Assembly (NCBI RefSeq): GCF_019670125.1 | Contig: NZ_AP023033.1 | Coordinates: 566,501-630,500, forward strand | Reading direction: 5' to 3' | DNA: 64,000 nt | From: Agarivorans aestuarii | GTDB lineage: Bacteria; Pseudomonadota; Gammaproteobacteria; Enterobacterales; Celerinatantimonadaceae | In this document: piece by piece, positions 33,134 through 60,861 of the stretch | How positions within the stretch are numbered: the stretch's first letter is position 1 | How the letters are laid out: the number at the start of each line of letters is the position of its first letter | Position numbers and translations under genes: made by a program | Notes under the pieces: model-generated | The model's database searches: none | Seen by the model: only the letters and a program-made list of their open reading frames with translations | Told to the model about the DNA's origin: nothing

Positions 33134-36100
33134 ATGAAAATCAAAATAGGATATTTTTTGGTTATGGTCGCTCCTACAGCATGGGGAGCGAGCATTTGTG
33201 ATTCAGCCAATTGGGATACTAACATTCAATACAAAAATGATGAGTTAGTAGTATTTCAAAATGCTGAGTACAAGGCCAAGTGGTGGAATAAAGCAACTAC
33301 ACCTGATAAGTCTGAACAGTGGGGCGCCTGGCAGTGGTTACATGATTGTGAGCTAGCAGAAACTCCCCTACCAAGCCCTGGTACTCCTGCCAGTGAGTTT
33401 GTATTAGTTCCAGCTGATGCAGTTTTAGACGGCGCGGATCTAACTGATAACGCGGTAAGCTTGAAGAATGGTTTAGCAACTTGGCATATAAATGTAGCTA
33501 ATGCTGGTCAGTACGCTGTGGAGTTCGACTATCGCTCCCCTCATGGTGATAAAACCAATACTTTTTTTGCAGGGAGTTACTCCGAGCAAGTTTTAACGCC
33601 ACAGTCTAGCAGCACACAAACGCTGAGCTTTGACATAGACCTAGCGGCCGGCTCAAACTCTATTGGTGTAAATGGCTCAAATGGAAACTGGGGTTACATT
33701 TTCATCGAGCAGGTTCGAATTACGGCTAAGTCTACGCTGCTAACACCACCACAACTGAGTCAAACTCAGATAGACTACGACTTAGCCAATAATGTCCCAT
33801 TAGCCCTTAGCTTAAGTGCTGGAAGCTACCAACTTACCCATGTAACAATCAACGATACTCAAGTAAGTGACTATAGTTTTGATGGTTCGCAGTTAGTATT
33901 ATCAGCTTCATTGATGGCGACATTGAGTGAAGCAGAGCACAATGTCGAGTTAGTGTTTTCAGCTGAAAATGCCGAAGATGTTGCTTTAAGCCTAACGCTC
34001 AATGTTAGTGATTCTGATACTAGTAATAATCAAACTTATACCTTAGTTCCAGCTGATGCCGTTTTAGGCGGCGAAGCTCGAATTACCAATGGTTCGGTTG
34101 ATGTTAAACATGGTGTGGCAACTTGGTCATTAGAGCTTGCTAGCTCTGGTAAGTACACCGTAGAGTTTGATTATCGCTCGCCCTATTCAGCTAAAACTAA
34201 TGGTTTGTTCATTGGCGATTACCAAGAGCTCTTCACCTCTGAACACAGTAGTGAAAAGTTAACCCATTCTATTGAATTGGATTTGGCTGCTGGGCGAACT
34301 GAGTTGGGCGTTCAAGGAGAAGGCAACGAAGGCTACATTTTTATCGATGAGATAAGAGTGATCAGTGAAGCCCCTACACAACCAATTCCTGATAAACCTA
34401 GTACTAGTGTTAGTACTGTTAGTTTCGACTTAGCAAACCCGACTAATGTAGATGTATCTGTAACATCTGGGGACTACCAACTATCAGCACTTATGGTGAA
34501 TCAAAACCTTCTAAGTGCTGACCAGTACAGCTATGTAAATCAACAACTGATTCTAGAAAATAGCTGGTTAGAGGGGCTAAGCCTTGGCCGTTACACTGTT
34601 AACCTAACTTTCAGTTTAGATAGCTATGCAGATCAACAGATAAGTTTCACCTTAAACGTTATTGACTCAGATAGGCCAAAGCCTGATTACCCTGGCTCAG
34701 AAGTCACCGATAGTACCAAAGAAAACTATGCTGATTATGCGGATACAATCGCTCATGTAGATCTTAACGACTACATCTCACAGCAAGACCAAGATAAGCA
34801 ATTTGCTAGCTACGGTAACTTATATGATAAATCTCTTTACGCTACTGGCTTAGGGGAGGATGTTGGTATTGCCTGGGCTGGCTGGAATCCTGCTCACTAC
34901 GAAGCAAATAAAGCCACTAAAATGGCGATTATCGACGAGATGAATATTAAGCGGGTGTCGTTCATTCCTACTTACTTCATAGATACCTACAGTGAGGGAG
35001 TACGTTGTGAGGATACAGCAAATACCTTAAGTGCGAGCAAACAAGTTGATTTACTTAACGAGTTGATGGGTAAAGGTGTGCGTATTAACTACCGCCCACA
35101 TATCGACCCGATGAAGTTTTCATGGGTGCAGGCAAGCCCGAATGCTGATCCTGGGCAACTTAACTGGCGAGGTTTGTTCGATAAACTAGACCCAATGAGT
35201 GATGGCTATGTATGTATTGTTGATAAAGGTCTAGATATTCTGGAGCAGGTTTTAGCAAGCTCAGCATTGCCGCTAAAAGAACCCATTCGCTTTGATATTG
35301 GCGCCGAGTTGATGGAGTCAACTAAAAAGTTCCCTCATCGTTGGGTTGAGCTGGTAAATCATGTACGAGCAAGAATTGCAGCTAGTTCTGAGCTGCAAGC
35401 TAACGTCACTGTGAGTCATAACTTTAGTCATCACATTCAGTACTTGATGGAGATTGAAGAGCATCCAGAGTACTTTACGCGTATTGTCTCTGGAGACACT
35501 TTCCACAACTATCCTAACTTGTTGTTTGTTGATGATATGACTCAACAGCAACGTGCTGATTTGGCAGACTATATTCGTGCACTAGATATTGTGACGGTAT
35601 CTCAGTACATGCCAATGGATGTAGTAAATCCTATCTCTGATCCAAAATCGACCAATGTCCCAACAACGGCTGAAGACGTAAAAGTTGCGCTGCAAAAACA
35701 TGAGCAAAACTTTATTCAAAAAGTGTTAATGGGCAAATTGGGTATTGATAAAGATGACATACCTTCATTCCACCTTGGTGAATACGGAATGGGCATTAAA
35801 GGTTTGGTAACGCCTAATGTATGGGACGCAACCGCTGTAACCAATGAAGAAATGGTTAGCTATGAAGCACATCAAGTGCATGCTCAAATCGCAATCAATG
35901 GCTTGCTGGCGTATATGCAAGATCCAGAAACTATCGCTAAATCATTGATGATTTGGGTAAGTGGTGCACCTTATGACGTGATTGGTTTCTATGAAGGAGA
36001 TGGTCAAGGTTTAGATGTGGGTGATGCAGGGCATGGCTACCCTGGTAAAAAGCCTTATAACGCCAATGCTGCCAACGACTTGAAGAACTATTGGACGGAG

Positions 36101-39100
36101 TCTGGAAGTGTCGATCCAGATCCACAAACACCACCTAAAACTATTAGCTATCAAGGACAAGAGCTGTTTTTAAATGGGGTAAATGTTGCTTGGTTTAACT
36201 TCGCTAACGACATAGGTAATGGACTTGATGAAGCGTCTTTACGTGCTGCTTTGCAAGATGTAAAAGACTCCGGCGGTAATACACTTCGTTGGTGGATGCA
36301 TACCGATGGTGCTTATACACCTGCTTGGGAAGTTGTTGATGGAAAAGCATTAGTTGCCTCACCGGGCGGAAGCTTTATTGCTGACCTGAAACAGGCTTTA
36401 GATATTGCTGCTGAATATGATGTTTACATCCAGCCAAGTCTTTGGTCGTTTGACATGTTGCGTTACAACGATGTACGTAATAATCCTGTTGCTAACAACT
36501 TTAGCTTGTTAAGTGACGATACAGTATTACAAAGTTATATCGATAATGCGCTTGTTCCTATGGTCAATACGCTAAATAGTCATCCTCAGCTGATTGCTTG
36601 GGAACTATTTAATGAACCTGAGAATATGACAGAAGGCTGGTTTACTGGTTTAGATGTAGTGAATCACTTTCCTAGCTTAAATCAGTTACAGCGAGTGCAA
36701 GCAAAAATGGCTGCCGCTATTCATCGCGCCGCAGAAGCTAATGGAGAAATTGCATTAGTAACAACGGGTTCTAAGTCGATGGGGAAATATAACTCAGATG
36801 TAGCTGGTGGTAGTAATTTGTATTCAGACGCGGCATTAATTAGTGCTGCCGATGGAGACCAACTGGCAACTTTCGACTTTTATCAGCCGCATTACTACAA
36901 CAACGAAGGTAAAAATGGTGCGTGGTCGCCATTTCATCATGACGCAAATTACTGGGGTGTATCAAAACCAATCGTATTGGGCGAATTTTACCTAACCGAT
37001 TTAACGGTAAATGGCGAAACCCTAACTGCAGCTGATATGTGTAAGCGTTTATATGATAACGGTTATGCAGGAGCTTGGGGATGGCAGTGGAATAAATACC
37101 CTGAACAAGCCAAAGCTTGCATGGCTGGCGTATTGAGCGAGCCTGTTGACCCAACGGACCCAACGGACCCAACGGACCCAACGGACCCAACGGACCCAAC
37201 GGACCCAACGGACCCAACGGACCCAACGGACCCAACGGACCCAACGGACCCAACGGACCCAACGGACCCAACGGACCCAACGGACCCAACGGACCCAACA
37301 CCGGTAGACCCCATAGAAACTACAGTGCTAAGTGGCACTGACGCAGCTCTAGAAGGTGATGCAGTATTAAGTGGCGCTGACGTAAGTTTGCAAGGTGCAG
37401 GCTCTAAAGCCAGCTGGCATTTTAGTGTGGCTGAAGCTGGTGAATATCAAATAACTCTGCACTACAGCGCACCACATGGGGCTAAATACAATACGGTGAG
37501 TCTAGATGGTTTAGGCTCTAGTATAAACTTTAGCGCTGAGGCGAATGGTGAATACACTCAAACACTAAGCCTGGAAGCGGGAAACCATGTTCTTGTGGCT
37601 GAGGTGTTAGGTAGTGATTGGGGCTACATTGACCTACATGGTGTAAGCATCAGCTTAATGGGCAGTTTGAACATAAGTAGCCCTGCTAACCTAGCGCAAT
37701 TGCCTTCTGGAAGCGATATTGAAATTGTCTTCAGTAAGCGTGGTGAAGGAGCGGTTACTTACAGCCTAAATGGTAGTGATAGTGAGCTTTACTATGGTGA
37801 TAGCCCGTTAGTTATAGCTAATCAAGGGGATGGAGTATATCGTATCTCCTTGGGGCTAGAAGGCACTAAAATTAGTGAGACATTAAGATTGAATGTTGGT
37901 GAAGTAGCAGTTAGCGCCTTTGTCGAAACTGATGGTACTAACTTCATCTTAGATGGAAAACCTTTCTACTTTAATGGTACCAACCAATACTACGTAATGT
38001 ACAAGCCTGAGCCAATGGCCAAAGACTTCTTTGATCGTGCCGCTCATATGGGCTTAACTGTTGTTCGCACTTGGATGTTCTGTAACGATGATCGCACCCA
38101 CGATGGCGTTTGCATCAACCTAGAAGACAATGGGCAGTTTATTTTAAGCATTCCAGAAGAACAACGTAGTGATAGTCAGAAGGCCATAATCAAGCGTAGT
38201 TTTGAGTTGTTTGACAACTACGTCGCATTGGCCGAAGAGCGTGGTATTCGTCTCGTTCTATCATTAGCTGACCATTGGGACTACTTTGGCAATGTGGATA
38301 GCTACGGCGGTTACGCAAGTGTGAGCGGGCGGGAAACATTTAAAGCCTTTATCACTAACTTGTTAAATCATACTAATGCGCTTACTGGCGTTAAGTACAA
38401 CGAAGACCCCACTATTATGATGTGGGAACTGGCTAATGAACCGCGTATTGGTAGTGACTTAAACGGCTTCAAAGCGTGGGTAGACGACATTGCTGCACAC
38501 CTAGCAGAACAAGCACCAGATCAGTTGCTATCAATTGGTATGGAGTCATCGTTTGGTTTTGGAGGTTCGGGTGATGACTACGAGAACTTGAAAATCGTTA
38601 ACGCTAACCCACACATTGACGCGATTAGTGCTCACTTATACCCAACGTGGTGGAATATGAGTGACAATCAAACCTTGGGTAACTTTGATAGTTTGGCTGC
38701 GTTAGCTACAGAGCTCAATAAACCTGCCTACATTGGTGAGTTTAGCTGGCCTGCTAATGTAGTTCGCGCTACTAACTCTGCTGATGATAAGAGTTATTCG
38801 ACAGGTACCGTTGAAGCAGGCTTAGCCAAGCGTACTCAGTTGTTTGAAGCTTGGTATGACAAGGCTTGGCAAAACAAAGATACTATTGCAGGTATGCTAA
38901 GTTGGCAATTATCAGGCTTAGAGTGGGGTAATGGGAATGGTACTCCAGGTAGCTGTCAGTGGTGTTCTGGCCCATATGGCGAGTACTCGGGCGGTTGGAC
39001 TGCAAACAATGACGGTTTCCAGTTCTACTGTGTAATGGATAGCTCCGAACTCTCTATTACTGGTGTAGGCGCACCTGGAAATAATGTAGAAGGGGATGGG

Positions 39101-39181
39101 ATTCGCTTAGATTTACACGAGCCAGTTTGTGAGCTTATTCATACATACTCAGATATGTATAAACAGGCCTCAGGCATGTAA
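33134..39181 (+). CDS. giant secreted beta-mannanase with three catalytic modules
   Basis: A 2015-residue secreted enzyme with a signal peptide at 1-19. Domains in order: CBM5/12-type module (about 20-75), CBM35/6-like module (about 92-198), X2-like module (205-300), a second CBM35/6-like (305-410) and X2-like pair (415-510). A GH113-like TIM barrel follows (525-985; RPHIDP, WRG, candidate glutamates E725 in IGAELM and E883 in LGEYG). Next is a GH5-like domain (1000-1335; E1161 in WELFNEPE, E1284 in LGEFY). A linker of 17 Asp-Pro-Thr repeats (1339-1389), a CBM35-like module (1395-1512) and an Ig-like module precede a GH5_7-like mannanase (1597-2010; E1769 in WELANEPR, E1869 in IGEFSW). GAGG lies 5 nt before the ATG, and two operators lie upstream. 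Confidence 0.9.
37148..37300 (+). repeat. 17 tandem copies of a 9-bp unit encoding Asp-Pro-Thr
   Basis: Sixteen exact copies of GACCCAACG and a last copy ending ACA give a (DPT)17 linker between the second and third catalytic halves of the giant mannanase. Identity at the DNA level, including codon third positions, implies recent expansion by slippage; copy number is probably variable between strains. Confidence 0.97.
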
Positions 39182-39296: not shown

Positions 39297-39312
39297 ATCG
39301 TAACGTTACGGT
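39297..39312. promoter_or_regulatory. LacI-type operator upstream of the first GH5_7 lipoprotein gene
   Basis: ATCGTAACGTTACGGT, 15 of 16 to the consensus, 46 bp before the start codon. Confidence 0.75.
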
Positions 39313-39358: not shown

Positions 39359-41383
39359 ATGGCGTTAAAGCGATTTATATTAAAGAATGCGGCTATTGGT
39401 ATTTTGTCAATATTAGGCTTGGCGGCCTGCGGAAGTACTGCTACTCAGCATGAGGAACCAGTGGTTTCGGTGCCTCAGGCTGAGCCTATCGCACAGTTCG
39501 TAAAGCAATCAGGCAAACAGCTTACGTTGTCAGGGCAGTCCTTTCGATTTGCTGGTGCAAGTAACTTCTATCTTCATCGCAGTGACAACGTAACGATTAC
39601 TTCATTTTTAGACGATGCAGAAGCAATGGGTCTAAACAGTGTACGTATTTTTGGCTTTTTGGATGGCGAAGACTACAACATGAGTTTACAACCAGAGCTA
39701 GGTGTCTTTAAAAAAGCTGGCCAAAAAGATGCTTTAGAGCGTATTGATTTTATTGTTCATCAAGCCTCTCTTAGAGGTATTAGATTAGTGATTGTACTTA
39801 CTAATAATTGGCCAGAATATGGGGGAGTTCCTCAGTACGTTAAATGGTTGGATTTAGAGAGCCACGATGAGTTTTTCAGCTCCAAGCAAGCCAAGGAGGC
39901 GTACAAGAAGTACGCCGCTCACTTAATTGGTCGTGAGAATCAGTATACCGGTAAGCGCTATAGTGACGATCCCACGATAATGACTTGGGAACTCATTAAT
40001 GCTCCTCGAACTCAAGATACCAGTGGGCAACTGTTGGTTGAATGGGCTGATGAAATGAGTCGATACGTTAAGTCTATTGCCCCTCAGCAATTAGTGGCGC
40101 TGGGCAGTGAAGGATTCTTTAATCGACCTGGTAACACAGATTGGAACTATAACGGTAGCGAAGGTGTTGATTGGGAGCGCCTAATTCGGTTACCAAATAT
40201 CGACTACGGAACTTTCCACCTTTACCCCGAATATTGGGAGAAAGCAGATGCTGAAGCTTGGGGGACGCAATGGATTGTAGAGCACGCTGAGGCCGCAAGC
40301 TTAGCTAATAAACCTTTTGTGCTGGAAGAGTATGCGATTTTAGCCAATGACATTAATAATCGTGATTTTGTTTACGACAAATGGCATAGAACGGCATACG
40401 CACAAGGTGCATCAGGAACCATGGTATGGGGCCTAAACAGCTTTAAAGATGCGGCTAAGAAAGAGCTTTACCCAGACTATGATGGCTATAGAGTACTGGC
40501 TGACCGAGGACGTACTCATCAGCTATTAGCACAACACTCTTTGGTTATGCGTGGCTTATTGCCAGGCTATGACGCACGCAGCTACATAACTACGCCTTCG
40601 CCATTACAGCGCATAGATAACCAGTGGTTAACTGTTAAAGCGAATGTATTGGCCGCATCATCGTCGGCTAAAAGCATGTCAGTTCGAACCAGTGTGGACC
40701 GCTATGAGTTAGATGGGCCTGACGCAGAGGGGTATTACACTGCTTACGTGGAGCTCGATCCTAGCACTTTGGGTGAGCAGCAAATATCGTTAGTCACTAA
40801 GTTGGACAATGGACAGCGCCTTAGTGATAAGTCCTCGGTATTGTACAACCCAACTGTGGTGGGTTATGAGCGAACTTTCACCTATGATTTTTCAAGTGGC
40901 TTAAAACAAGGCTGGCATAGTGATGGGGCTTGGCAAGCTAAATGGAATAAGCCGGCATTAACGATCAGCGATGATCTTGGCAAATCAATGTTGAAACTTA
41001 ATGGTGAACTACCGGGTTTGGAAGAATGGGAAGAACTAAAAATTAGAAATAGTCGTATTCAAAACCTTAATCGCCAAGACCGTATTGTGTTCACTGCTTA
41101 CATACCTGCTGATGAAACGGGTGCCGGCGGGGTACGACCTTACGCTGCTTTAGCTGATGGCTGGGTAAAGTTGGGCATTGATCAATATAGAGAGTCTGTT
41201 TCGTCGTTAGAAAAGGTGATTGTTGACGACCAAGTATATTACAAACAGCTTGTAGAAATAGAGCTAGGCAATACCGCCGGTAAGCAGCCAGACATTTACA
41301 TATGTTTTGTGGGTGAAAAGTTGCCTTTAAGCAAACCGGTTTATCTTGATGATATTCATTTCGAAAAGGCTTTATATAAATAA
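39359..41383 (+). CDS. GH5_7-like surface lipoprotein lacking the catalytic acid/base (probable mannan-binding pseudoenzyme)
   Basis: A 674-residue lipoprotein (lipobox Leu-Ala-Ala-Cys near residue 24). The N-terminal GH5_7 barrel (about 45-400) keeps VRIFGF, the LTNNW strand, FHLYPEYW and the nucleophile in LEEYA. The acid/base motif reads WELINAPR, so glutamate is replaced by alanine at residue 215. The paralogue at 44929 has intact WELANEPR. The C-terminal part (about 500-674) looks like a CBM27 mannan-binding module. AAGGA lies 6 nt before the ATG. With its substitution the protein should bind but barely hydrolyse mannan; this is an inference from one residue that is clear in the DNA (GCT). 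Confidence 0.88.
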   Translation: MALKRFILKNAAIGILSILGLAACGSTATQHEEPVVSVPQAEPIAQFVKQSGKQLTLSGQSFRFAGASNFYLHRSDNVTITSFLDDAEAMGLNSVRIFGFLDGEDYNMSLQPELGVFKKAGQKDALERIDFIVHQASLRGIRLVIVLTNNWPEYGGVPQYVKWLDLESHDEFFSSKQAKEAYKKYAAHLIGRENQYTGKRYSDDPTIMTWELINAPRTQDTSGQLLVEWADEMSRYVKSIAPQQLVALGSEGFFNRPGNTDWNYNGSEGVDWERLIRLPNIDYGTFHLYPEYWEKADAEAWGTQWIVEHAEAASLANKPFVLEEYAILANDINNRDFVYDKWHRTAYAQGASGTMVWGLNSFKDAAKKELYPDYDGYRVLADRGRTHQLLAQHSLVMRGLLPGYDARSYITTPSPLQRIDNQWLTVKANVLAASSSAKSMSVRTSVDRYELDGPDAEGYYTAYVELDPSTLGEQQISLVTKLDNGQRLSDKSSVLYNPTVVGYERTFTYDFSSGLKQGWHSDGAWQAKWNKPALTISDDLGKSMLKLNGELPGLEEWEELKIRNSRIQNLNRQDRIVFTAYIPADETGAGGVRPYAALADGWVKLGIDQYRESVSSLEKVIVDDQVYYKQLVEIELGNTAGKQPDIYICFVGEKLPLSKPVYLDDIHFEKALYK

Positions 41384-42137: not shown

Positions 42138-42163
42138 AGCAGCTATTTATAGCTGCTTTTTTT
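42138..42163. terminator. terminator between convergent genes
   Basis: AGCAGCT-ATTTAT-AGCTGCT then TTTTTT. It follows the RDD gene and overlaps the stop codon of the opposite gene. Confidence 0.75.
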
Positions 42164-42955
42164 ATCTTCTTCAGAATCGACATTTAGCCCTTCACATAAG
42201 CTCGTATCAGGGCTAAATGCATCTAGGCAGTAGTGCATTAGTAAACCTTCATCTTTCATTGCGCGTAAGTGTGCAGTTAGTTCGTCTGCCAGAGCTCGGT
42301 GTTTGCTGTGGATGTAGGGGTAAATAGTGACTGAGTCCAAGTTACCCGAGTCCATGATATGACCTTTAAATTCCTCGCTGTTTAATAGATGGCGAACCCC
42401 GATATCAGCTTGTACAAACATGTCTACGCGACCATATTTTACTTTCAATAAGCCTTGGCGAATGGATGTTACAGTGCCTAATTTAGATACTGGTAAAACT
42501 TTCTCTAGGTTCAGTTTGTTGATTAGGGCTCCTCTTTTATATACCACCGTGTAGTTTGTGTTCTTAAAGCTTGCCCAGCCACTGTTTAACGTAGTGCTAT
42601 TGCTGGTGTGGGAGTAAGCGTTAATATTTATCTTATAGAGAGGAACATCTATCCTGATTTGGTTCGGGAAGTTATCTTGGTATTCATATACTCGTCCAAA
42701 TTGACCATCTATCGAGCCCGCTACTGCTTTTTTGGTGGCTCTTGCTTCTGGCAAATAAGTGATAACGAGAGGGATGTCTAGGCGTTTGAACAACTCTTTG
42801 TAAATAGCAGTAAGCCATTGGGAAGCACTAGAGTCTTCGACTTGATTCGAATACATCACAAAAGGGTCGGGTTTGGCAGGATTACTAGGTGAAGCGGAGG
42901 CGAGTTGAATAGTTAGGAGACTAGACCAGATAAATAGCATTGGAGTGTTTCTCAT
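42143..42955 (-). CDS. periplasmic SBP_bac_3-type solute-binding protein
   Basis: A 270-residue protein with a signal peptide (about 1-22) and the two-lobed family 3 binding-protein fold (LPEARATKKAVAGSIDGQFGRV; RQGLLKVKYGRVDMFV). Such proteins usually bind amino acids; solitary copies without permeases are common in Vibrio and Alteromonas relatives. No transporter partner is adjacent, so its link to mannan use is doubtful. No operator palindrome precedes it and the ribosome site is weak. Confidence 0.8.
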   Translation of the reverse strand: MRNTPMLFIWSSLLTIQLASASPSNPAKPDPFVMYSNQVEDSSASQWLTAIYKELFKRLDIPLVITYLPEARATKKAVAGSIDGQFGRVYEYQDNFPNQIRIDVPLYKININAYSHTSNSTTLNSGWASFKNTNYTVVYKRGALINKLNLEKVLPVSKLGTVTSIRQGLLKVKYGRVDMFVQADIGVRHLLNSEEFKGHIMDSGNLDSVTIYPYIHSKHRALADELTAHLRAMKDEGLLMHYCLDAFSPDTSLCEGLNVDSEEDKKSSYK

Positions 42956-44928: not shown

Positions 44929-46938
44929 ATGAAGAAAACATTAATCTGGTTAGGCACGGTTGGCCTAGGTACTGCAATTTTAGCTGGGTGTGGAAGTACC
45001 ACCGGAGGAGCGGATGCCCCAGTTATCGCAGCTGAACCAATTACTGATTTTGTAAGTCAATCCGGAGAACAACTGCTATTAAATGGCGAAGCTTTTCGGT
45101 TTTCGGGCACCAACAACTACTACATGCATTACGGTGATAACAAGGCTATTACCACAGTATTGGATGATGCTCAAAAGATGGGCCTCAATGTAATTCGTGT
45201 TTGGGGGTTCATGGATGGTATAAGCCATGGCCATACTATGCAGCCAGAGATGGGAGTGTATAGCTCGACTGAAGCGAAAAGTGGCTTAGAGCGATTAGAT
45301 TTCACCATCGCCGAAGCAAATAAACGAGGCATACGTTTAGTTATTGCATTAACCAACAACTGGGGCGACTTTGGTGGTATGCCACAGTATGTAAATTGGA
45401 TTGGTGGAGACCACCATGATGACTTTTATCGCGAAGCTGAGGCGCGCGAGGCTTATAAAAACTATGTAGCACATGTATTAAGTCATACTAACAAATATAC
45501 CGGCGTGGCTTACGTCGAAGACCCAACTATTATGACATGGGAACTGGCTAATGAGCCGCGCGCCCAGTCTGATACGAGTGGTGAGCTGCTTTACGCTTGG
45601 GCAAAAGAAATGAGCGACTACGTCCGTGAGCTAGCTCCTAAGCAGCTAATTGCTTTAGGCAGTGAAGGCTTCTTTACAAGACCTGGAGAAGAAGACTGGG
45701 CGTATAACGGCAACGAGGGGGTAGATTGGGAGCGGATCCTAACTCTCTCAAATATTAACTATGGTACTTTCCACTTATACCCTGAACATTGGGGAAAGCA
45801 TAACGCCGAGCAGTGGGGGACACAGTGGATTCTTGATCACATTGATGCTGGTAAAGTTGCTAATAAACCTGTGGTTTTGGAGGAGTACGGGATTGGTGCA
45901 GCAGAACCATTTAACAGAGACTTTATCTACGACAAATGGACTCGCACCGCTTATGAAAATGGCGCGGCAGGAACGATGTTCTGGATTTTAACCAGCTACG
46001 ATAAGAATGCTAGCGACAAGCTGTATCCAGATTACGACGGCTTCCGAGTGCTTGCCGATGGCGGAAGAACCAATCAAGTTCTTACTCGTCATACTAAGCA
46101 AATGTTAGGGCAACCAGTAGAGCTAAAAGACTCGGTTTACTTTACTTATCCTGTTGATAATTTATCGGTAACTGACCAGACAGTAACGGTTCAAAGTTAT
46201 GTAATGAGTTATAAAGAGCAGCCTACCGAGTTACTGCTACGCACCCCAGCGGGTAACTACCCAATGGAAGACAGTGACAAAGATGGCTACTACAGTGCTG
46301 AGATCAAAGTTGAAGATATAGGCTTTGGTGAGCAACAATTAATTACCGTAGCCACAATGGAAAGCGGCAAGCGTATTACCGATAAAATTACAGTTAAGTT
46401 TGATCGTCCTATAACAGGTTATAAAATGGGTCCTAGCTTCGACTTCTCTAGTGGTGATTTATTAGGTTGGCAAAAAGAAGGAACTTGGCAAGCCAAGTGG
46501 AAGAATCCTGCTTTAGAAGTAAGCTCTGATTTGGGCTCGCCAATGCTTAAGTTAAACCTTGTTTGGTCGGGCAAAAATGATTGGGAAGAGCTTAAGTTGC
46601 GCAATATGCGAATTAAGAACTTCCAACAGCAAAACCGTTTCACTTATGATTTATACATCCCAGTAAATGATGGGGACAAAGGTGGTGTTCGACCATACGC
46701 TGCCCTAGGAGACGGCTGGGTTAAGTTGGGCGTAGATAAATACCGCAAACAGGTTTCTGAGTTAGAAAAAGTAACCAAGAACGGTAAGCAATACTATAAG
46801 CAAGAAGTGGTGATAGAGCTTGGTGATATATCGGGTAAAGCGCCAGACATTTTCATTGCAGTTGTTGGAGATAAGCTGCCAATGGATGGTTCTGTGTATC
46901 TCGACAATATCCGGTTTGAGGAAGCTACATACGACTAG
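44929..46938 (+). CDS. GH5_7 beta-mannanase, surface lipoprotein (catalytically intact)
   Basis: The ATG at 44929 is preferred over an upstream TTG because AAGGA lies 7 nt before it. The 669-residue lipoprotein (signal ending Leu-Ala-Gly-Cys) has a GH5_7 barrel with acid/base glutamate in WELANEPR (E209), FHLYPEHW, and nucleophile in LEEYGIG. A CBM27-like C-terminal module (about 500-669) should bind mannan. It is a close paralogue of the product of 39359-41383, which lacks the acid/base. It should cut mannan or large manno-oligosaccharides at the cell surface before uptake by the porin. Confidence 0.92.
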   Translation: MKKTLIWLGTVGLGTAILAGCGSTTGGADAPVIAAEPITDFVSQSGEQLLLNGEAFRFSGTNNYYMHYGDNKAITTVLDDAQKMGLNVIRVWGFMDGISHGHTMQPEMGVYSSTEAKSGLERLDFTIAEANKRGIRLVIALTNNWGDFGGMPQYVNWIGGDHHDDFYREAEAREAYKNYVAHVLSHTNKYTGVAYVEDPTIMTWELANEPRAQSDTSGELLYAWAKEMSDYVRELAPKQLIALGSEGFFTRPGEEDWAYNGNEGVDWERILTLSNINYGTFHLYPEHWGKHNAEQWGTQWILDHIDAGKVANKPVVLEEYGIGAAEPFNRDFIYDKWTRTAYENGAAGTMFWILTSYDKNASDKLYPDYDGFRVLADGGRTNQVLTRHTKQMLGQPVELKDSVYFTYPVDNLSVTDQTVTVQSYVMSYKEQPTELLLRTPAGNYPMEDSDKDGYYSAEIKVEDIGFGEQQLITVATMESGKRITDKITVKFDRPITGYKMGPSFDFSSGDLLGWQKEGTWQAKWKNPALEVSSDLGSPMLKLNLVWSGKNDWEELKLRNMRIKNFQQQNRFTYDLYIPVNDGDKGGVRPYAALGDGWVKLGVDKYRKQVSELEKVTKNGKQYYKQEVVIELGDISGKAPDIFIAVVGDKLPMDGSVYLDNIRFEEATYD

Positions 46939-49919: not shown

Positions 49920-51137
49920 ATGAAACTACAAGACTTTAAGCAAGAAATGGCGCACGAGGTAGATAATAATATCTTGAGCTTTTGGCTTGAAATGATAGAC
50001 AAAGAAAATGGTGGTTTTCACTGTTTTGCTGATTTCAACGGAACTGTTGATAAAGAGCATGACAAAGCCGTGTTGTTGCATTCTCGCATACTATGGAGTT
50101 TTTCTGCTGCCCATCGAATTCTTCCAAATGATAAGTATTTAGCAGCCGCTAAACATGCCTATTTGTTCATAAAAGAACAAGCTTTAGATCGCGAGAACGG
50201 CGGAGTTTACTGGATGCTTGATAGTAAAGGTAAGGTGAAAGATCCGCAAAAGCATATCTACAATCAAGGCTTTGCCATTTATGCTCTAACTGAATACTTT
50301 CGCATAAGCAAAGATCTAGAGGCGCTTGATATTGCCAAAGGCTTATTTGAGCTTATTGAGTCAAACGCATACGACAAGGTCAATGGTGGTTATATTGAAG
50401 CGTTTGACCAGCATTGGCAGCCCATAGAAAACCACCTTGTATGTGATACCTCAGAAGAAGTTCTCGCTGAGAAATCGATGAACACCCACCTTCATATATT
50501 GGAAGCTTACGCAAATCTGCATCGAGTATGGCCCGATGAACTGGTTGAGCAACGCCTTAGCGAGTTACTAGTGTTGTTTCGCGACACCATTGTCGATGAA
50601 GATTTACACTTCGGGCTGTTTTTTAGTCGTGAGTGGCAGTGTGTATCTAAAGATGTGTCTTACGGGCATGACATTGAAGGAACGTGGTTATTAGACGACG
50701 CTGCCGCATGTATCAGCGATAAGCAACTCTCCGCGAGTATTTATGCGCTAACTACTAAAATGGCCGACGTGACCCTGCAGCAAGGTAGAGACGCTGATGG
50801 TGCTATTTTTAATGAGCTACAACACGGGAAAATGTTAGACAGCGACCGTATTTGGTGGGTTCAAGCGGAAGCCATGGTGGGCTTTTATAACGCCTTTCAA
50901 AAAGACTTTGACCCTAGATATTGGGCGGTCGCCCAAGACTGCTGGAAGATCATCAAAAACCAAATTGTAGATACAGAAAATGGAGAATGGCATTGGAAGA
51001 CTGATCGCCAGGGTAACCCTTATACCGGCGAAGCAAAAGTTGAACCATGGAAATGCCCTTATCACAATGGCCGTGCGTGCCTAGAAATTTATTCAAGAAT
51101 CACCAGTTATGAGGAAAATAGCTATGCATGCTGTTGA
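49920..51137 (+). CDS. AGE-family epimerase, probable mannobiose 2-epimerase
   Basis: A 405-residue (alpha/alpha)6-barrel enzyme of the N-acylglucosamine/cellobiose 2-epimerase family. Diagnostic residues include YGHDIEGTWLLDDAA (H250), WWVQAEAM and CPYHNGRACLE (H382), which form the His pair and pocket of cellobiose/mannobiose 2-epimerases. In bacterial mannan pathways this enzyme converts beta-1,4-mannobiose to mannosyl-glucose, the substrate of GH130_1 mannosylglucose phosphorylase, whose gene is at 55927. The context strongly supports mannobiose as substrate. It overlaps the next gene. Confidence 0.9.
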   Translation: MKLQDFKQEMAHEVDNNILSFWLEMIDKENGGFHCFADFNGTVDKEHDKAVLLHSRILWSFSAAHRILPNDKYLAAAKHAYLFIKEQALDRENGGVYWMLDSKGKVKDPQKHIYNQGFAIYALTEYFRISKDLEALDIAKGLFELIESNAYDKVNGGYIEAFDQHWQPIENHLVCDTSEEVLAEKSMNTHLHILEAYANLHRVWPDELVEQRLSELLVLFRDTIVDEDLHFGLFFSREWQCVSKDVSYGHDIEGTWLLDDAAACISDKQLSASIYALTTKMADVTLQQGRDADGAIFNELQHGKMLDSDRIWWVQAEAMVGFYNAFQKDFDPRYWAVAQDCWKIIKNQIVDTENGEWHWKTDRQGNPYTGEAKVEPWKCPYHNGRACLEIYSRITSYEENSYACC

Positions 51138-52206: not shown

Positions 52207-52356
52207 TAATCATTCCTTATGGAAAGTTTGTTTTTCGGTTAATCGAACAAGTATTAACCGAAAACTTTGACATGATTCGTAACTTTTGCATTTATAGGTG
52301 AGTATTCTATCCATACCCTTGTTACTAAAGGGGGGGTGTGAGACCATTTTGGTTGA

Positions 52357-52372
52357 AATCGTTACGAATTTA
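52357..52372. promoter_or_regulatory. degenerate operator-like site before the lacI-type gene
   Basis: AATCGTTACGAATT has an ATCG and TACGA portion but lacks the central AACGTT. Another partial match is near 52275 (ATTCGTAAC). Possible autoregulation; weak. Confidence 0.3.
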
Positions 52373-52394
52373 TGTAGAGGAAGTGAAGGTAATC

Positions 52395-53399
52395 ATGGCA
52401 AAGGCAACGTTAAAAACTATTGCAGAATATACGGGTTTGTCTGTCACTACAGTGTCAAGGGCACTGAAAGACGGTGATGATGTAAAGCAACCTACCAAAG
52501 AAATAGTTAAGGCAGCCGCTAAAAAGCTTGGTTATCGACCCAATCCCTCTGGTGTTGGCCTACGCACTGGCATTAACTACAATATTTGTGCAATTTTGCC
52601 TGTAACCAAGCCAGGCGATATTGTGGGCGACGTAGGCTCACTTGCATTGATTGAAGGTTTCACCGCTGCACTTAAGGGAACGCCTTACCATCTAACTGTA
52701 TTGCCAATGGCTCCGGATGAAGACCCTATGGAGCCGGTTAGGTATGCATTCGAAAATAACCTTTGTGGTGGCATGATCTTCAACTTGACCAAAACTCAAG
52801 ATGAGCGGGTAGCTTATCTGCATGACAACGAGATTCCGTTTGTCACTTTTGGCCAAACTGAAATGAGTATTGAGCACCCATATGTCGATATCGACAACCA
52901 CGATATGGCTTATAGAGCGGCCAGGCAGCTTTACGAGCAAGGGCGCAAAAATATTCGTCTGTTAAGTTCTTCTCATGATTATACCTACGCATGGCATAAG
53001 TACTATGGTGCGCGTCGAGCCGCTAGAGAGTTTGGTTACGATTTTGAGATTGAAAAAAACATCATTTTCGATTCGGACGTTGATGACTATCGCAAGCTTG
53101 GCAACAAGCTTATGTCGGGCGAACAAGCTCCTGATGGCTTAATTTGTGGTTCTGAAATAAGTGCCTGTGGTTTGTTGGCTGGGATCCAAGATACAGGCAA
53201 GACTATTGGTGACGATATTGATGTGGTGTTGGTAGAGACCTGTGACCTACCAAGCTTTTTTATGCCGCCAATCTCAGGCTACAGACAAGACTTTCACCAA
53301 GTGGGCCGAAAGTTGATTCAACACTTGCTGCGCCGAATTAACGGCGAACCGGTTAAGCATCTGCAAACCTTACAAAAAACGGTTTATTATCAACGCTAA
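52395..53399 (+). CDS. LacI-family transcriptional regulator of the mannan locus
   Basis: The ATG at 52395 (AAGG 5 nt upstream) gives a 334-residue protein with an N-terminal LacI helix-turn-helix (TLKTIAEYTGLSVTTVSRAL) and a hinge KKLGYRPNPSG. The C-terminal periplasmic-binding-like domain should bind a mannose-derived inducer. It sits between the ABC operon and the manB-GH130 operon. Palindromes with a central AACGTT, a plausible LacI-type operator, occur upstream of almost every operon in the locus, so this protein is the best candidate to bind them. Confidence 0.92.
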   Translation: MAKATLKTIAEYTGLSVTTVSRALKDGDDVKQPTKEIVKAAAKKLGYRPNPSGVGLRTGINYNICAILPVTKPGDIVGDVGSLALIEGFTAALKGTPYHLTVLPMAPDEDPMEPVRYAFENNLCGGMIFNLTKTQDERVAYLHDNEIPFVTFGQTEMSIEHPYVDIDNHDMAYRAARQLYEQGRKNIRLLSSSHDYTYAWHKYYGARRAAREFGYDFEIEKNIIFDSDVDDYRKLGNKLMSGEQAPDGLICGSEISACGLLAGIQDTGKTIGDDIDVVLVETCDLPSFFMPPISGYRQDFHQVGRKLIQHLLRRINGEPVKHLQTLQKTVYYQR

Positions 53400-54925: not shown

Positions 54926-55918
54926 ATGACTGTAAAAATTTTGGGAGCATCCCTACCAAATATTCCTTGGGAAGATCGCCCGGCAGATTGCCAAGATGTA
55001 ATGTGGCGCCATAGCAAAAACCCGATTATTGGTTGGAATCCGTTTCCAGCTGCAGCCCGTGTTTATAACAGTGCTGTAGTACCGTTCAACGACGGTTTTA
55101 TTGGTGTATTCCGCTCAGACTACAAAAACGGTCGCCCACACTTGCATGTTGGTTACAGCCAAGACGCTTTAAGCTGGGAATTTGAAGAGGAGGCTATTCA
55201 GTGGGTAGATGCTGAAGGTAAACCTTTCCAGCCAAGTTATGCTTATGACCCTCGCGTAGTTAAGCTAGATGATACCTATTATGTTACCTGGTGTACTGAT
55301 GACCACGGTGCAACCTTAGGTATGGGCATGACTAAGGACTTTAAAACCTTTACTCGTCTAGAGAATGCTTGCGTGCCGTTTAACCGTAATGGTGTGTTGT
55401 TCCCACGTAAAATTAACGATCAATATGTTTTGCTTAACCGCCCCTCAGACAGCGGTCACACACCGTTTGGTGATGTGTTCTTAAGCCACAGTAACGACAT
55501 GGAGTACTGGGGTAAGCACCGCCATGTAATGGGTAAAGGCGGAGAAGGTTGGTGGCAAGGTACTAAAATTGGTGCCGGTCCAATTCCGATTGAGACTAGT
55601 GAAGGTTGGTTGATGATTTATCACGGTGTTTCAGGTACTTGTAATGGCTTTGTTTACAGTATTGGTGCTGCCATTCTAGATATCGATGAGCCTTGGAAAG
55701 TTAAGTACCGTACTCGTGATTACTTATTAACTCCAGAAAAAGAGTATGAAACAGCTGGCTTTGTGCCAAACGTTGCCTTCCCTTGTGCTGCTTTAGCAGA
55801 TGCAGATACTGGCCGTATTGCAATTTACTACGGCGCAGCAGATACCTATTCAGCTGTTGCTTATACCCAAGTTGATGAGTTGGTTGAGTACATCAAGAAC
55901 AATTCTGAAGTTTTCTAG
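54926..55918 (+). CDS. GH130 beta-1,4-manno-oligosaccharide phosphorylase (GH130_2-like)
   Basis: A 330-residue five-bladed propeller enzyme. GGAG lies 6 nt before the ATG, 13 bp after manB. The catalytic aspartate is D108 in AYDPRV, the GH130 general acid. Length and motifs ([25 protein letters not shown]) fit the phosphorylases that shorten manno-oligosaccharides with phosphate, giving mannose-1-phosphate. The alternative, a phosphorylase for N-glycan mannosyl-chitobiose (also GH130_2), is less likely in this locus. Confidence 0.88.
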
Positions 55919-55926
55919 AGGTTAAT

Positions 55927-57096
55927 ATGTCGGTATTTCAACAACGATTAACAATGCTGCAGGCAGAGCACCAGCACTTACACGCTAAAGTAAATCAAGC
56001 AGAATTGCCTGGGAATGGGGTATTTTTACGCTACAAAGATCCTGTTTTGACAGCCGCGCATGCACCGTTAACTTGGCGCTATGACTTAAATGCTGAGACC
56101 AATCCTTATTTAATGGAACGCCTTGGAATTAATGCAGTGCTTAATCCTGGTGCAATTGAATTAGATGGCAAGTTTTACATGGTTGCCCGCGTTGAGGGCC
56201 ATGACCGTAAGTCATTCTTCGCAGTGGCCGAAAGCAGCAATGGTATTGATGGTTTTACCTTTTGGGATAAGCCCTGTGAGATTGGCGAAACAGAAGTGCC
56301 TGATACCAATGTGTACGACATGCGTTTAACGCGTCATGAAGATGGTTGGATTTATGGCTTGTTCTGTACAGAACGTAAAGACCCAGAAGCTGCTCCTGGA
56401 GACGAGTCGTCTGCAGTAGCGCAGTGTGGCATCGTTCGAACAAAAGACTTAAAAACTTGGGAACGTCTTGCTGACCTAAAAACTAACTCTGCACAGCAAC
56501 GAAACGTAGTTCTGCACCCAGAGTTTGTTAATGGCAAGTATGCTCTTTACACTCGCCCTCAAGACAGCTTTATTGAAGCCGGCAAAGGCGGTGGTATTGG
56601 GATGGCGTTTGCTGACTCAATGACTGAATGTGTAGTAGACATTGAGCATGTGATTGAGCCAAAAACCTATCACACGATCAAAGAGTCAAAAAATGGTCAA
56701 GGGCCTGCACCGATGAAAACCGATAAGGGTTGGTTACATATTGGTCATGGTGTTCGTAATACAGCAGCCGGTTTGCGTTATGTATTGTATTGCTTTATGA
56801 CCGACCTTAATGACCCGATGAAAGTAACTCATCGACCAAGTGGCTACTTCTTAGCTCCGGAAGGAGAAGAGAGAGTGGGCGACGTTTCTAACGTCGTGTT
56901 CTGCAACGGCATGGTAGCGCGAGAGAATGGCGAAGTGTATATCTATTACGCTTCTTCAGATACTCGTTGCCATGTACTTACTACTAGCATTGACCAGCTA
57001 GTAGATTATGTGACCAACACGCCAGAAGATCCGTTAACCTCTGCTGGTTGTGTTAAGCAACGAATTGCCTTGATTGATCGCAATTTAGCGCTTTAG
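55927..57096 (+). CDS. GH130 4-O-beta-D-mannosyl-D-glucose phosphorylase (GH130_1-like)
   Basis: A 389-residue phosphorylase starting 8 bp after the previous stop, with AGAGG 5 nt upstream. The general acid is D131 in VYDMRL, and RNVVLHPEF and [13 protein letters not shown] line the substrate site. The length is that of characterised GH130_1 enzymes, which split mannosyl-glucose into mannose-1-phosphate and glucose. Together with the AGE-family epimerase this completes intracellular mannobiose use without a mannosidase. A strong terminator follows. Confidence 0.92.
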
Positions 57097-57361: not shown

Positions 57362-57377
57362 ATCGTAACGTTGCCAT
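57362..57377. promoter_or_regulatory. LacI-type operator, proximal site of porin promoter
   Basis: ATCGTAACGTTGCCAT, 14 of 16 to the consensus. Confidence 0.7.
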
Positions 57378-57484
57378 TTTTTGTTGTTATTATGGCTTTG
57401 CCTTTTTCAATAGGTCCGCTGCGCAGTACTAATAGGGAACATAGCAGCGGGTTGAATTTTTCCTTAACGATAAGATGGAACGAT

Positions 57485-58774
57485 ATGAAAAGATCAATTC
57501 TAAACAAAAGCATATTCCTCGCATTAGCTTGCGCTGCTGGTTCTGCTTCTGCTGTAAGCACCGACTTTGGCATGCATGGCTACATTAAAAGTGGCTTGTT
57601 AATTAACTCTGACGGCACCCGTGCGGAGCGTATCGGACTTTGGAGCGATACTGCGAAATTCCGTTTAGGTAACGAACACAATACCAAAATTGAGTTACTG
57701 CCAACCGTTACTATGACAACTGACGACGGTGTAATTGCCCGCGTTCGCGCTAACTTAACCCACGAAACAACCTGTACTGCAGATTGGAACTGTGTTGATG
57801 CAGATGGCCATGAAATACAATTCCGTGAAGGTTTTGTAGAGCTTGAAAACGTTGCCTTTGCACCAGGTGTTGTTTGGTGGGCGGGTAAGCGTTACAGCTC
57901 AAGCAATGCTTCAAACCACCAATATGACTGGGAGTACATTCAATACAACGGTACTGGCGGTGGTGCAGATAAAATCGACCTAGGTTTTGCTCGCTTAGAT
58001 GTAGGTGTATACGCGTTTATGCCTAGCGACCGTAACTCTGAAGATCCAGTAGATGGAACGGTTCAGGGATATTCTGACGATTTCTCGCTAAATGTTTGGC
58101 TTAAGGACATTGGTGGCATTGGCTTAGATTTACAAGCTGTTGGCCACACAATGGAGCAACACCCTTGGCATTCAAACGCAGCAGAAGATGGCTTAGGTCT
58201 TACTGCCATTTATAACTTCAATGGTTTCTACAATTTTGCTAACGGTTACTCACGTGCAGTACTTCAATATGGTGAAGGTTTAGCTGCTGGCGATTCACTA
58301 GGTAAAAATGGTTGGGGCTTTGCTAACAGCAAAGGCACTAAATCATGGCGTGGTGTGCTAGATGGCCTAGCAAGCTTTGGTAACTGGGATGTATCAACTT
58401 TTGCTTTCTACCAGCAAGACAAAGACTACAAACCTTGGAGCAACGTTGTTGAGGGCGAAGGTGACGACGTAAATCGTTGGGCTGTAGGTGTGCGTCCATT
58501 CCACCAAATCGCACAAAACTTCGCGATGCAATACGAAGTAGGTTACGAGTACTTCGACAACACAACCACAGACCAAAAAGGTGGATTAGTTAAAGCGACC
58601 ATCGCGCCAACTATCACCTTCGAATCTGGCTTCTGGAGCCGTCCACAAATCCGTACTTTCGTAACTTACGCTAAGTGGGATGACGAAGTAGGTGATCGCA
58701 TTGGTTCTAGCTATACACGTGATGGCCAAACTGACACTTGGAACTTTGGTGTGCAGGGTGAAGTTTGGTTCTAA
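57485..58774 (+). CDS. LamB-like carbohydrate porin
   Basis: The ATG at 57485 starts a normal signal peptide (ending GSASA); the open frame begins at 57371. The 429-residue product begins FGMHGYIKSGLL, contains VWWAGKRYSS and ends GEVWF with the terminal Phe of an outer-membrane barrel. This matches the maltoporin (LamB) family of 18-stranded sugar porins. With two mannan operators upstream it most likely admits manno-oligosaccharides released by the GH5 enzymes. Confidence 0.9.
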   Translation: MKRSILNKSIFLALACAAGSASAVSTDFGMHGYIKSGLLINSDGTRAERIGLWSDTAKFRLGNEHNTKIELLPTVTMTTDDGVIARVRANLTHETTCTADWNCVDADGHEIQFREGFVELENVAFAPGVVWWAGKRYSSSNASNHQYDWEYIQYNGTGGGADKIDLGFARLDVGVYAFMPSDRNSEDPVDGTVQGYSDDFSLNVWLKDIGGIGLDLQAVGHTMEQHPWHSNAAEDGLGLTAIYNFNGFYNFANGYSRAVLQYGEGLAAGDSLGKNGWGFANSKGTKSWRGVLDGLASFGNWDVSTFAFYQQDKDYKPWSNVVEGEGDDVNRWAVGVRPFHQIAQNFAMQYEVGYEYFDNTTTDQKGGLVKATIAPTITFESGFWSRPQIRTFVTYAKWDDEVGDRIGSSYTRDGQTDTWNFGVQGEVWF

Positions 58775-58830: not shown

Positions 58831-58860
58831 GCGCTCTCAGCAACAACTTTGGAGAGTTCT

Positions 58861-60861
58861 ATGCGTATTACGATTCAAATTCTCATCTCATTCGCCATCG
58901 TATTAGGCTTATATGCAGTATCTACCGGTATTGCTGTTAAGCAGACTAATCAAGCTAAACAAGACATTCTTGTGCTGATGGAAGATTCAGCTAAGTTAGA
59001 CCAAGCCTCGAATCAACTACGACTAAACCTATCTAATTTTCAACAATCCATTCTAGAGCTGGTTCAAGCTAAAGACGTTTCTTTGCAGGCAAGTTTTGCA
59101 GAAAAGAACAAGCAGATACTCAATGCCATTAGCGAGGTATATCAGCAAGGGTTATTGCAGGTTTATCTTAGTGAAGACCAACAACAACAATTTACCCAAG
59201 ATTTAACCGAGCTTCGCTCGCTGGCCAAGTCTATTCAAAGCGAACATTTTGAAAGCTTAGTCTTAGCAGAGCAAACGCAAACACTTCGTAATGAGTTATC
59301 TAACCAGGTAGCAACTGCCGATTCAGTGCTTGATAGAGTCACAGCTAGATACATTAAAGACGACTATTTTTTACGAAAAGAGCTTGAGGAATATACAGAC
59401 TTAAGGGATGCCCTGCTCGACATGAGCTACCGAGCATTCTTTGCCGATAGCAGTGAAGACGCTCTACAGCTTGACAATGCTATTAGTTCAGCCGAAGAGA
59501 ATTACCTAGATCTGCTGGAAATCATCTTAGAAGACTTCCCAGCCTTAAATAGCGAAAAAGACTTTTTAAACGCCAGTCAACAAATCACCAAGTTCCTATT
59601 TAGTGAGAATCGACTCACCTATTTGTTGGTCGCTCAAACCTCCGCCAGCGAAGATGCAGAACTCGAGTTGGCTGAGCAACAAGGCATTTTGTTCCGAATG
59701 AACGAACTGGTTGGCAATGTAAGTGCACAGCTTAAAACAGAGAGCCAACAAAATAGCCAACTAATTGCAGGGAGCCTCGATACTGTTAGCAATATTCAAC
59801 TAGCCGTTATGCTGCTTTGCTTGCTAATTGTATTGGTTATTGGCTTTGTGCTTACTAGGAGTATTCGCCAGCCACTAAACTATTGCTTAGAGAAAATGAG
59901 TTTGTTGGCGGCAGGTGATTTTAGTCAACAAATTAGCACACATTGGCCTAAAGAGTTTTCTGAACTTACTCAACAATTGCAAAAAATCATACACACCAAC
60001 AGTCGATTGTTTGAACAGATCAAACATCATGGTAGTGATATTTATGACATCTCCTTAAACAATGCAGAACAAACAACCAAAGTAAAAGAAAGTGGTGATG
60101 AACAGTTGGCTGCGGTTTCTAGGATCTCAAGTGCTGTTTGTGAACTAGAGCAAACCAGTAGCCACGTTAGAGAGCTTACTCAAAACCATCTGGAGCAAAG
60201 TCGCGAAATTAGCAAGATAGCTGAATCGGGCGGTGTGGCTATTGAAGCAAACAACCAAAGTAATACTGAGCTACAAAGCCAAATCGAAACCAGTTCACAA
60301 GTTATTGATGAAGTTTTCCAACAGAGTCAAGACATCAGTCAGATCTTAGAAGTCATCGAAAACATCGCCAATCAAACTAATTTGTTGGCGCTTAATGCGG
60401 CTATCGAAGCAGCCAGAGCAGGCGAACAAGGGCGTGGTTTTGCGGTGGTTGCTGAGGAAGTGCGTGACTTGGCAAAACGCACCACCCAGGCAACGGGTCA
60501 AATTCAAGACATGATTGAGCAATTACAAACCGCATCGCAAAAGGCGGTGAGTAATATGCAGCAATGTGACCAGCACATGAAAGTTAATTTTGAAGCCGTG
60601 CAAGACAGCAAACAAAGCATTTTCGACATCAATGAATTGCTGCACTCCTTAGAGAAAGACGTGAATTTTATTTCTCAATCAACCCAAGAGCAACACAGTG
60701 CTTGTGCAGAGATTTCCGAGTCTTTAGAGGGCATCGCTCTAGCGTTTTCTGAGAGTACCGCCACCTCAGCAGATGTGGCAGAGCAAAGCCAAATTCTGGC
60801 TCAACGCACTCAAGAACAGCAAGCTGAATTAACCCAAATACGAACCCTCAAGTCTACTTAG
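58861..60861 (+). CDS. methyl-accepting chemotaxis protein
   Basis: The ATG at 58861 (GGAG 6 nt upstream) gives 666 residues. Transmembrane helices at about 7-27 and 313-333 bound a roughly 285-residue helical periplasmic domain, long enough for an HBM-type sensor. HAMP and the signalling domain follow, with the hairpin tip containing [27 protein letters not shown] in shortened form typical of MCPs. There is no C-terminal receptor pentapeptide. Its place between the porin and manA suggests it senses a mannan product, directly or through a binding protein. Confidence 0.93.

Follow-up and report, generated by a model that had tools for sequence, protein, structure and literature searches.

Non-catalytic GH5 proteins have been described since 2012, when Aspeborg et al. 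reported such modules in several subfamilies, some of them in lipoproteins and on long branches (PMC3526467). In the available text of that paper the cases are assigned to GH5_30 and to GH5_1-, GH5_8- and GH5_48-related groups, the lipoproteins form a GH5_8-related group, and neither GH5_7 nor CBM27 appears among the examples given in the section on non-catalytic modules. Rsi24C-GH5 of Clostridium thermocellum, which has lost its acid/base residue, binds its polysaccharide, cellulose, and is the extracellular sensor part joined to an anti-sigma factor (PMC3526467). In GH26, the glucomannan locus of Segatella copri encodes a dead mannanase homologue, GH26B, with a predicted surface location; it has lost both catalytic residues, this loss is conserved in some 64 genomes and MAGs, and the inactive protein bound none of the mannans tried (PMC12704710, in the part available). 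For GH5_7, neither hydrolysis nor transglycosylation could be detected with the E186A mutant of the soybean enzyme GmMAN19-1, whose CD spectrum had hardly changed (PMC12512182, in the part available). By their titles, PDB entries 4nrr and 4nrs are sugar complexes of a GH5 mannosidase mutant, E202A, E202 presumably being the acid/base residue. Among the matches listed in our partial coverage of the literature there was no natural GH5_7 protein without its acid/base.

Here we analyse P0001, encoded by Agarivorans aestuarii in a stretch of 64,000 nucleotides (contig NZ_AP023033.1, positions 566,501 to 630,500; hereafter the window), which adds a GH5_7 plus CBM27 case to the non-catalytic GH5 proteins. 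It has in common with the proteins of Aspeborg et al. a barrel without the full catalytic pair, a long branch and a lipoprotein signal, and differs from them in subfamily (PMC3526467, as far as available). Like Rsi24C-GH5 it has lost the acid/base; unlike it, P0001 has no anti-sigma factor part, carries a CBM27 module and is a lipoprotein. The parallel with GH26B is that of a mannanase homologue, here very probably inactive, in a mannan locus and with a possible place at the surface, with the differences that P0001 belongs to GH5 and has lost one catalytic residue, not both. The closest known counterparts include the GH5_7 endo-beta-1,4-mannanases with CBM27, here the Thermotoga petrophila mannanase (6tn6/3pz9), with which P0001 shares domain order, predicted fold and most cleft residues, and from which it departs at the acid/base (Glu to Ala), at mapped glycone-side positions and at W98. 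Features are collected in Table 1.

Table 1. Features of P0001 and of the surrounding mannan locus (window coordinates).
Feature	Position	Strand	Basis
P0001, GH5_7-like barrel, linker domain and CBM27, lipoprotein	39359..41383	+	ORF, Pfam, model
Signal peptide of P0001, lipobox LAAC (Cys24, Gly at +2)	39359..39430	+	sequence
GH5 barrel of P0001, residues about 46-399	39494..40555	+	alignment
Codon 215 of P0001, GCT (Ala), acid/base position	40001..40003	+	sequence
CBM27 module of P0001, residues 508-668	40880..41362	+	Pfam, alignment
Family-invariant columns changed in or near the P0001 cleft: S68, F70, R74, F98, Y106, E153, Y154, A215, Y377			
Operator palindrome GTAACGTTAC	39300..39309 (12-bp palindrome 39299-39310)	+	motif scan
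P0003, 2015-aa multi-modular protein, C-terminal GH5_7 with NEP	33134..39181	+	Pfam, sequence
Sugar-binding protein of ABC importer, divergent from P0002	43289..44557	-	Pfam
P0002, paralogue with intact NEP, conserved family member	44929..46938	+	sequence, homologous loci
AGE-type 2-epimerase	49920..51137	+	Pfam
LacI-family regulator	52338..53399	+	Pfam
Two GH130 proteins	54926..57096	+	Pfam
LamB-type porin	57371..58774	+	Pfam

P0001 carries alanine at the GH5 acid/base position

All 674 codons of P0001 are open (674 aa), and a Pfam scan found both GH5 (PF00150, E 1.1e-13) and CBM27 (PF09212, E 2e-34; 119.7 bits against a gathering score of 20). At the alignment column where the paralogue P0002 reads WELANEPR, P0001 reads WELINAPR; the C-terminal GH5_7 module of P0003 has NEPR, that is, Glu at the acid/base column. 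The nucleophile E324 is present, and P0001 is thus a GH5 module with one of its two catalytic residues replaced (A215). An initial annotation of this DNA had proposed the Glu to Ala exchange, in an intact frame with CBM27 and nucleophile retained, and ORF, Pfam and alignment data bear all of this out. Its description of the motif was incomplete, since the paralogue's Ala213 is also replaced, by Ile, and one residue is deleted shortly past the motif.

Glu occupies the acid/base column in 16/16 of the other full-length GH5-CBM27 proteins in a 17-sequence alignment (nine Vibrio, Aliagarivorans, a Hahella MAG, three of a Succinatimonas-type genus, a spirochaete and the two window copies), and in all 29 other GH5 modules compared, P0001 alone having Ala. 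The 13 modules added to reach 29 were those of P0003, L005, L013, L015-L018, L023, L037, L038 and L054-L056. These stand outside the 17-sequence set as a gene with in-frame stops at the same place as L033 (L005), as a gene in two frames (L013, like L053), as matches without the CBM27 part (L015-L018, L054-L056), or as more distant proteins with a GH5 module only (L023, L037, L038 and P0003; L037 is weak, at 26% identity).

Because E186A, the same substitution at the same position, abolished the activity of GmMAN19-1 (PMC12512182, in the part available), there in a laboratory mutant, we consider P0001 very probably inactive as a catalyst.

The predicted fold is that of a GH5_7 mannanase and the cleft is partly altered

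The AlphaFold2 model of P0001 (19 sequences) had a mean pLDDT of 86.8, and that of P0002 87.3. The P0001 model matched the T. petrophila mannanase 6tn6 (Z 48.5, 440 residues, 3.0 A) and, tied with it, 8gf3 (Z 48.3, 349 residues, 2.2 A), followed by GmMAN19-1 (Z 46.8, 344 residues, 2.1 A), a GH5_7 enzyme matched to P0001 by sequence as well as by fold. P0001 belongs to GH5_7 by both sequence and fold, its best solved matches being GH5_7-type mannanases. Its CBM27 part matched TmCBM27 (1of3; Z 26.3, 172 residues, 2.2 A). Loop 364-374, which adjoins the cleft in relatives, had pLDDT below 50, compared with 70 to 76 in the matching ten-residue blocks of P0002.

By our placement, P0001 retains six (R96, N214, H287, Y289, E324 and W357) of the seven residues that the available text of PMC4237917 singles out as highly conserved across GH5. 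The mannopentaose contacts of GmMAN19-1 (PMC12512182, available part) were then mapped onto P0001, hand-counted from the printed alignment with an offset of four; W118 of GmMAN19-1 falls one off in this mapping, W357 was placed by family conservation, and F354, D356 and Y358 of GmMAN19-1, near the C-terminal loop, are unmapped because the printed alignment ends before them. Eight mapped contacts are retained (W151, N214, R217, E251, Y289, W293, E324 and W357). The altered ones are Y70F (Y37 of GmMAN19-1), Y74R (Y41), D153E (D119), F154Y (F120) and E215A (E186), together with H106Y (Y77), for which the mapping is less sure. Outside the mapped contacts, P0001 has Phe in place of W98, which all 16 other rows share.

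By this mapping P0001 appears to keep the -1/+1/+2 core near the cleavage point, and four or five outer glycone-subsite positions appear remodelled. The earlier claim that all other active-site segments are kept therefore holds for the core and for six of the seven signature residues, and not for the outer glycone positions or W98. With the contacts equivalent to Y37, Y41, D119 and F120 altered, the affinity of the cleft may fall or shift.

Overall, at columns on which the other 16 proteins all agree, P0001 departs from them at 17 of 95 in GH5, once by a deletion, and at none of 15 in CBM27. A greater conservation of CBM27 than of GH5 was considered and dropped, the difference in changed invariant columns giving p 0.12. 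When every other row was left out in turn, the changed invariant columns over all domains numbered 0 to 8 in 15 rows, the counts of 0 for L010 and L046 being uninformative since these two are nearly identical, and 42 in the distant spirochaete (30/108 in GH5, 10/25 in CBM27). Changes in P0001 fell on 6 of the 14 invariant columns that are mapped contacts and on 11 of the other 81 in GH5 (one-sided p 0.017), a weak indication of an excess at the contacts, as p rises to 0.053 if position 106, whose mapping is unsure, is dropped, to 0.042 if column 215 is dropped and to 0.118 if both are.

An old duplicate on a long branch retains constraint

P0001 and P0002 are identical at 345/672 columns, and the genes are 48-49% diverged. 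In the tree P0001 stands beside P0002 plus Aliagarivorans with support of 93/87, which is below the tool's mark for a firm branch, and a single clade of P0001 and P0002 was not rejected (AU test, p 0.19). The P0001 branch, at 1.43 against 0.18 and 0.38 for the nearest rows, is eight-fold that of P0002 and agrees with the long branches of other non-catalytic GH5 proteins. Acceleration over P0002 was about equal in the barrel, the middle part and CBM27 (7.1, 5.5 and 6.1 fold). Between the two genes pN was 0.32 and pS 0.77; synonymous sites are saturated, and pN and pS are for this reason reported in place of dN/dS. These values suggest that the duplication is old.

The sites at which P0001 and P0002 differ follow the constraint of the family. 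From invariant to most variable, in classes defined by the 15 other rows, they make up 16/94, 23/92, 62/107 and 46/63 of the GH5 sites (17% to 73%) and 1/16, 8/36, 29/71 and 37/47 of the CBM27 sites (6% to 79%). Substitutions at invariant columns were mostly conservative (10/16 with BLOSUM62 above 0, where single-base changes would lead one to expect 4.6; p 0.002), and so, to a lesser degree, were those at the 171 columns where P0002 equals Aliagarivorans and P0001 differs (67 conservative, 55.3 expected; p 0.024). As judged from these substitution patterns, P0001 has continued under purifying selection on its long branch. Moreover, a random substitution in this frame yields a stop with a chance of 5.1%, and after 57 neutral ones less than a 5% chance of an open frame would be left, so that the open frame argues against neutral drift over most of the branch, though not over a very recent stretch.

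P0001 lies under an operator of a mannan locus

A perfect GTAACGTTAC lies about 50 bases upstream of the P0001 start codon. Allowing at most one mismatch, there are 12 sites in the window against 1.7 expected. The whole genome holds five perfect sites, compared with three for the pattern read backwards as a control; three of the five are inside the window and a fourth is about 4.8 kb past its end. The LacI-family regulator of the locus likely reads these operators. Sigma-70 and terminator scans gave no more matches than shuffles. The intact frame and the operator of its own had been put forward earlier as arguments against decay of P0001, and the retained constraint and the perfect site ahead of the gene support that argument.

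Besides the genes in Table 1, the neighbourhood encodes a phosphoglucomutase/phosphomannomutase (Pfam), a mannose-6-phosphate isomerase and, judged by translation, permease and ATPase ORFs. Among the 13 window proteins scanned with Pfam there is the LamB porin and no SusC, and the scan of P0001 found no SusD domain.

P0001 is an addition to a conserved gene pair

No orthologue with the same Ala was found, and P0001 was seen in this genome only, among 197 relatives, 12 genomes of the family (which includes Aliagarivorans taiwanensis), 227 of the Vibrio genus, 19 of another genus and 13 named entries, and among samples of larger groups (394 of the order, 369 of the class and 388 from the class of a Parageobacillus genome), these sets overlapping. 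Contigs were scanned by two short peptide patterns, a procedure that misses much, and plasmids by tblastn; of 26 plasmid records the catalytic site was read in the Vibrio one (L008) alone. All matches that were compared directly with P0001 stayed at or below 52% identity, and no other genome had a second full-length copy at the cut-offs used. The initial annotation had suggested looking in homologous loci for the same substitution beside an active copy; it did not turn up there, each of the seven loci read with flanks having a single copy. In all seven the solute-binding protein and the P0002 orthologue adjoin and are divergent, so that P0001 comes on top of a conserved pair and shares its operator type.

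Proposed function and alternative explanations

CBM27 is a mannan-binding family. Lipoproteins with a lipobox and no Asp at +2 are sorted to the outer membrane, and P0001, whose sequence reads LAAC-G without Asp at +2, is predicted to be located there. Since P0001 has lost the acid but retains CBM27 and the -1/+1/+2 residues, its simplest role would be to bind mannan or its fragments without cutting them. We therefore regard P0001 as probably a pseudo-mannanase, an old duplicate that lost its acid/base and was kept as an outer-membrane lipoprotein binding mannan or manno-oligosaccharides. The GH5_7-CBM27 lipoprotein of the locus was duplicated long ago and the P0001 copy lost its acid/base (Glu to Ala); it would no longer cut mannan, and it would bind mannan or manno-oligosaccharides through CBM27 and the remodelled cleft at the outer membrane, holding substrate close to the intact enzymes (P0002, P0003) and the LamB porin. 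A SusD-like role, as raised by the initial annotation, with chains held near these proteins, is possible judging from position and from the LamB porin and sugar ABC importer of the locus. More tentatively, P0001 may be a natural substrate-trapping capture protein of LamB/ABC-type mannan uptake, with its acid/base lost and its outer glycone cleft reshaped; if so, a capture protein does in a gammaproteobacterium what SusD and surface glycan-binding proteins do in Bacteroidota. The lack of mannan binding by the inactive GH26 of Segatella counts against a binding or SusD-like role. Also weighing against the pseudo-mannanase reading are the altered glycone-side contacts, an acceleration spread over all three domains instead of being confined to the barrel, and the failure to find, in the genome sets searched, an orthologue in which the Ala is conserved.

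Alternatively, P0001 might be a binding protein whose cleft now recognises a partner protein or some ligand distinct from linear beta-mannan, such as a branched or an algal manno-glycan. The share of changed columns among mapped contacts and the loss of W98, invariant in 16 others, point that way, but the statistic is weak, the contacts were hand-counted and the mannan-binding CBM27 is kept, and we think this unlikely. That P0001 is still an enzyme, with an alternative acid/base or with substrates that need none (activated leaving groups, transfer), is quite improbable in our judgement. Acid/base-free retaining glycosidases such as the myrosinases are known, and at the -1 site P0001 still has the nucleophile along with the His, Tyr, Arg and Trp; however, GmMAN19-1 E186A neither hydrolysed nor transglycosylated in the assays used (PMC12512182, in the part available), and E153, a carboxylate not shared with the relatives, is a D-to-E swap at the position mapping to D119 in subsite -3 and should be too far from the scissile bond to act as acid/base.

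Slow decay toward a pseudogene, the frame being open by chance alone, would fit the eight-fold branch, the acceleration across all domains and the presence of P0001 in one of 12 genomes of the family. It is at odds with the small chance of an open frame after 57 neutral substitutions, with the gradient of site constraint and the conservative changes at invariant columns, and with the perfect operator; we consider it improbable, while a very recent onset of decay is compatible with the data. As for the possibility that an ordinary active mannanase was misread or misassembled, the initial annotation took NEP in all close homologues as a sign of a sequencing error. Glu is indeed found in 29/29 other modules, but the inference fails, as GCT is two base changes from both GAA and GAG, which disfavours a single-base error, and the whole gene is diverged from its paralogue; P0001 also departs from the other 16 proteins at 16 further GH5 columns on which these all agree, and the genome is a single contig with 100% completeness. 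We give an error almost no credence.

The observation is real, ordinary in kind and useful as a test case. Here nature has produced a substitution that experimenters introduce into such enzymes to trap sugar, beside two copies with an intact catalytic pair and the same operator type. This provides a clean case for asking how a glycosidase becomes a lectin, and whether a surface capture protein is part of mannan loci in gammaproteobacteria.

Other features of the locus and of homologous loci

P0003 has a signal-like start, CBM5/12 (just under the Pfam cut-off), CBM35 and X2 modules, a DPT repeat linker, a GH5-like part and the GH5_7 module. Its stretch 34691-36088 (466 aa) had no clear match to a solved structure (best E 0.96) and no Pfam match of its own. 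Directly downstream of P0001, 41453-42064 encodes an RDD family membrane protein, for which the eight homologous-locus stretches compared gave no match at E 1e-15. The 270-aa ORF at 42143-42955, without a Pfam match, looks by eye like a periplasmic binding protein and shares 45% identity with part of the Aliagarivorans locus. In genome G124 a GH5_7-CBM27 gene (L005, 1495-3555) is broken by two in-frame stops with NEP kept, and in Parageobacillus caldoxylosilyticus (L013, 8001-9943) the GH5_7 and CBM27 parts are two separate adjacent frames. The mannanase gene of Vibrio sp. HDW18 (L008) lies on a 599-kb plasmid, a possible route of transfer. Inside the mannan locus, 58849-60861 encodes a chemotaxis-receptor-like protein that matched NCBIfam models below their cut-offs and has matches of 30-43% in three other loci (L010, L012 and L051), and it may mediate chemotaxis to manno-oligosaccharides.
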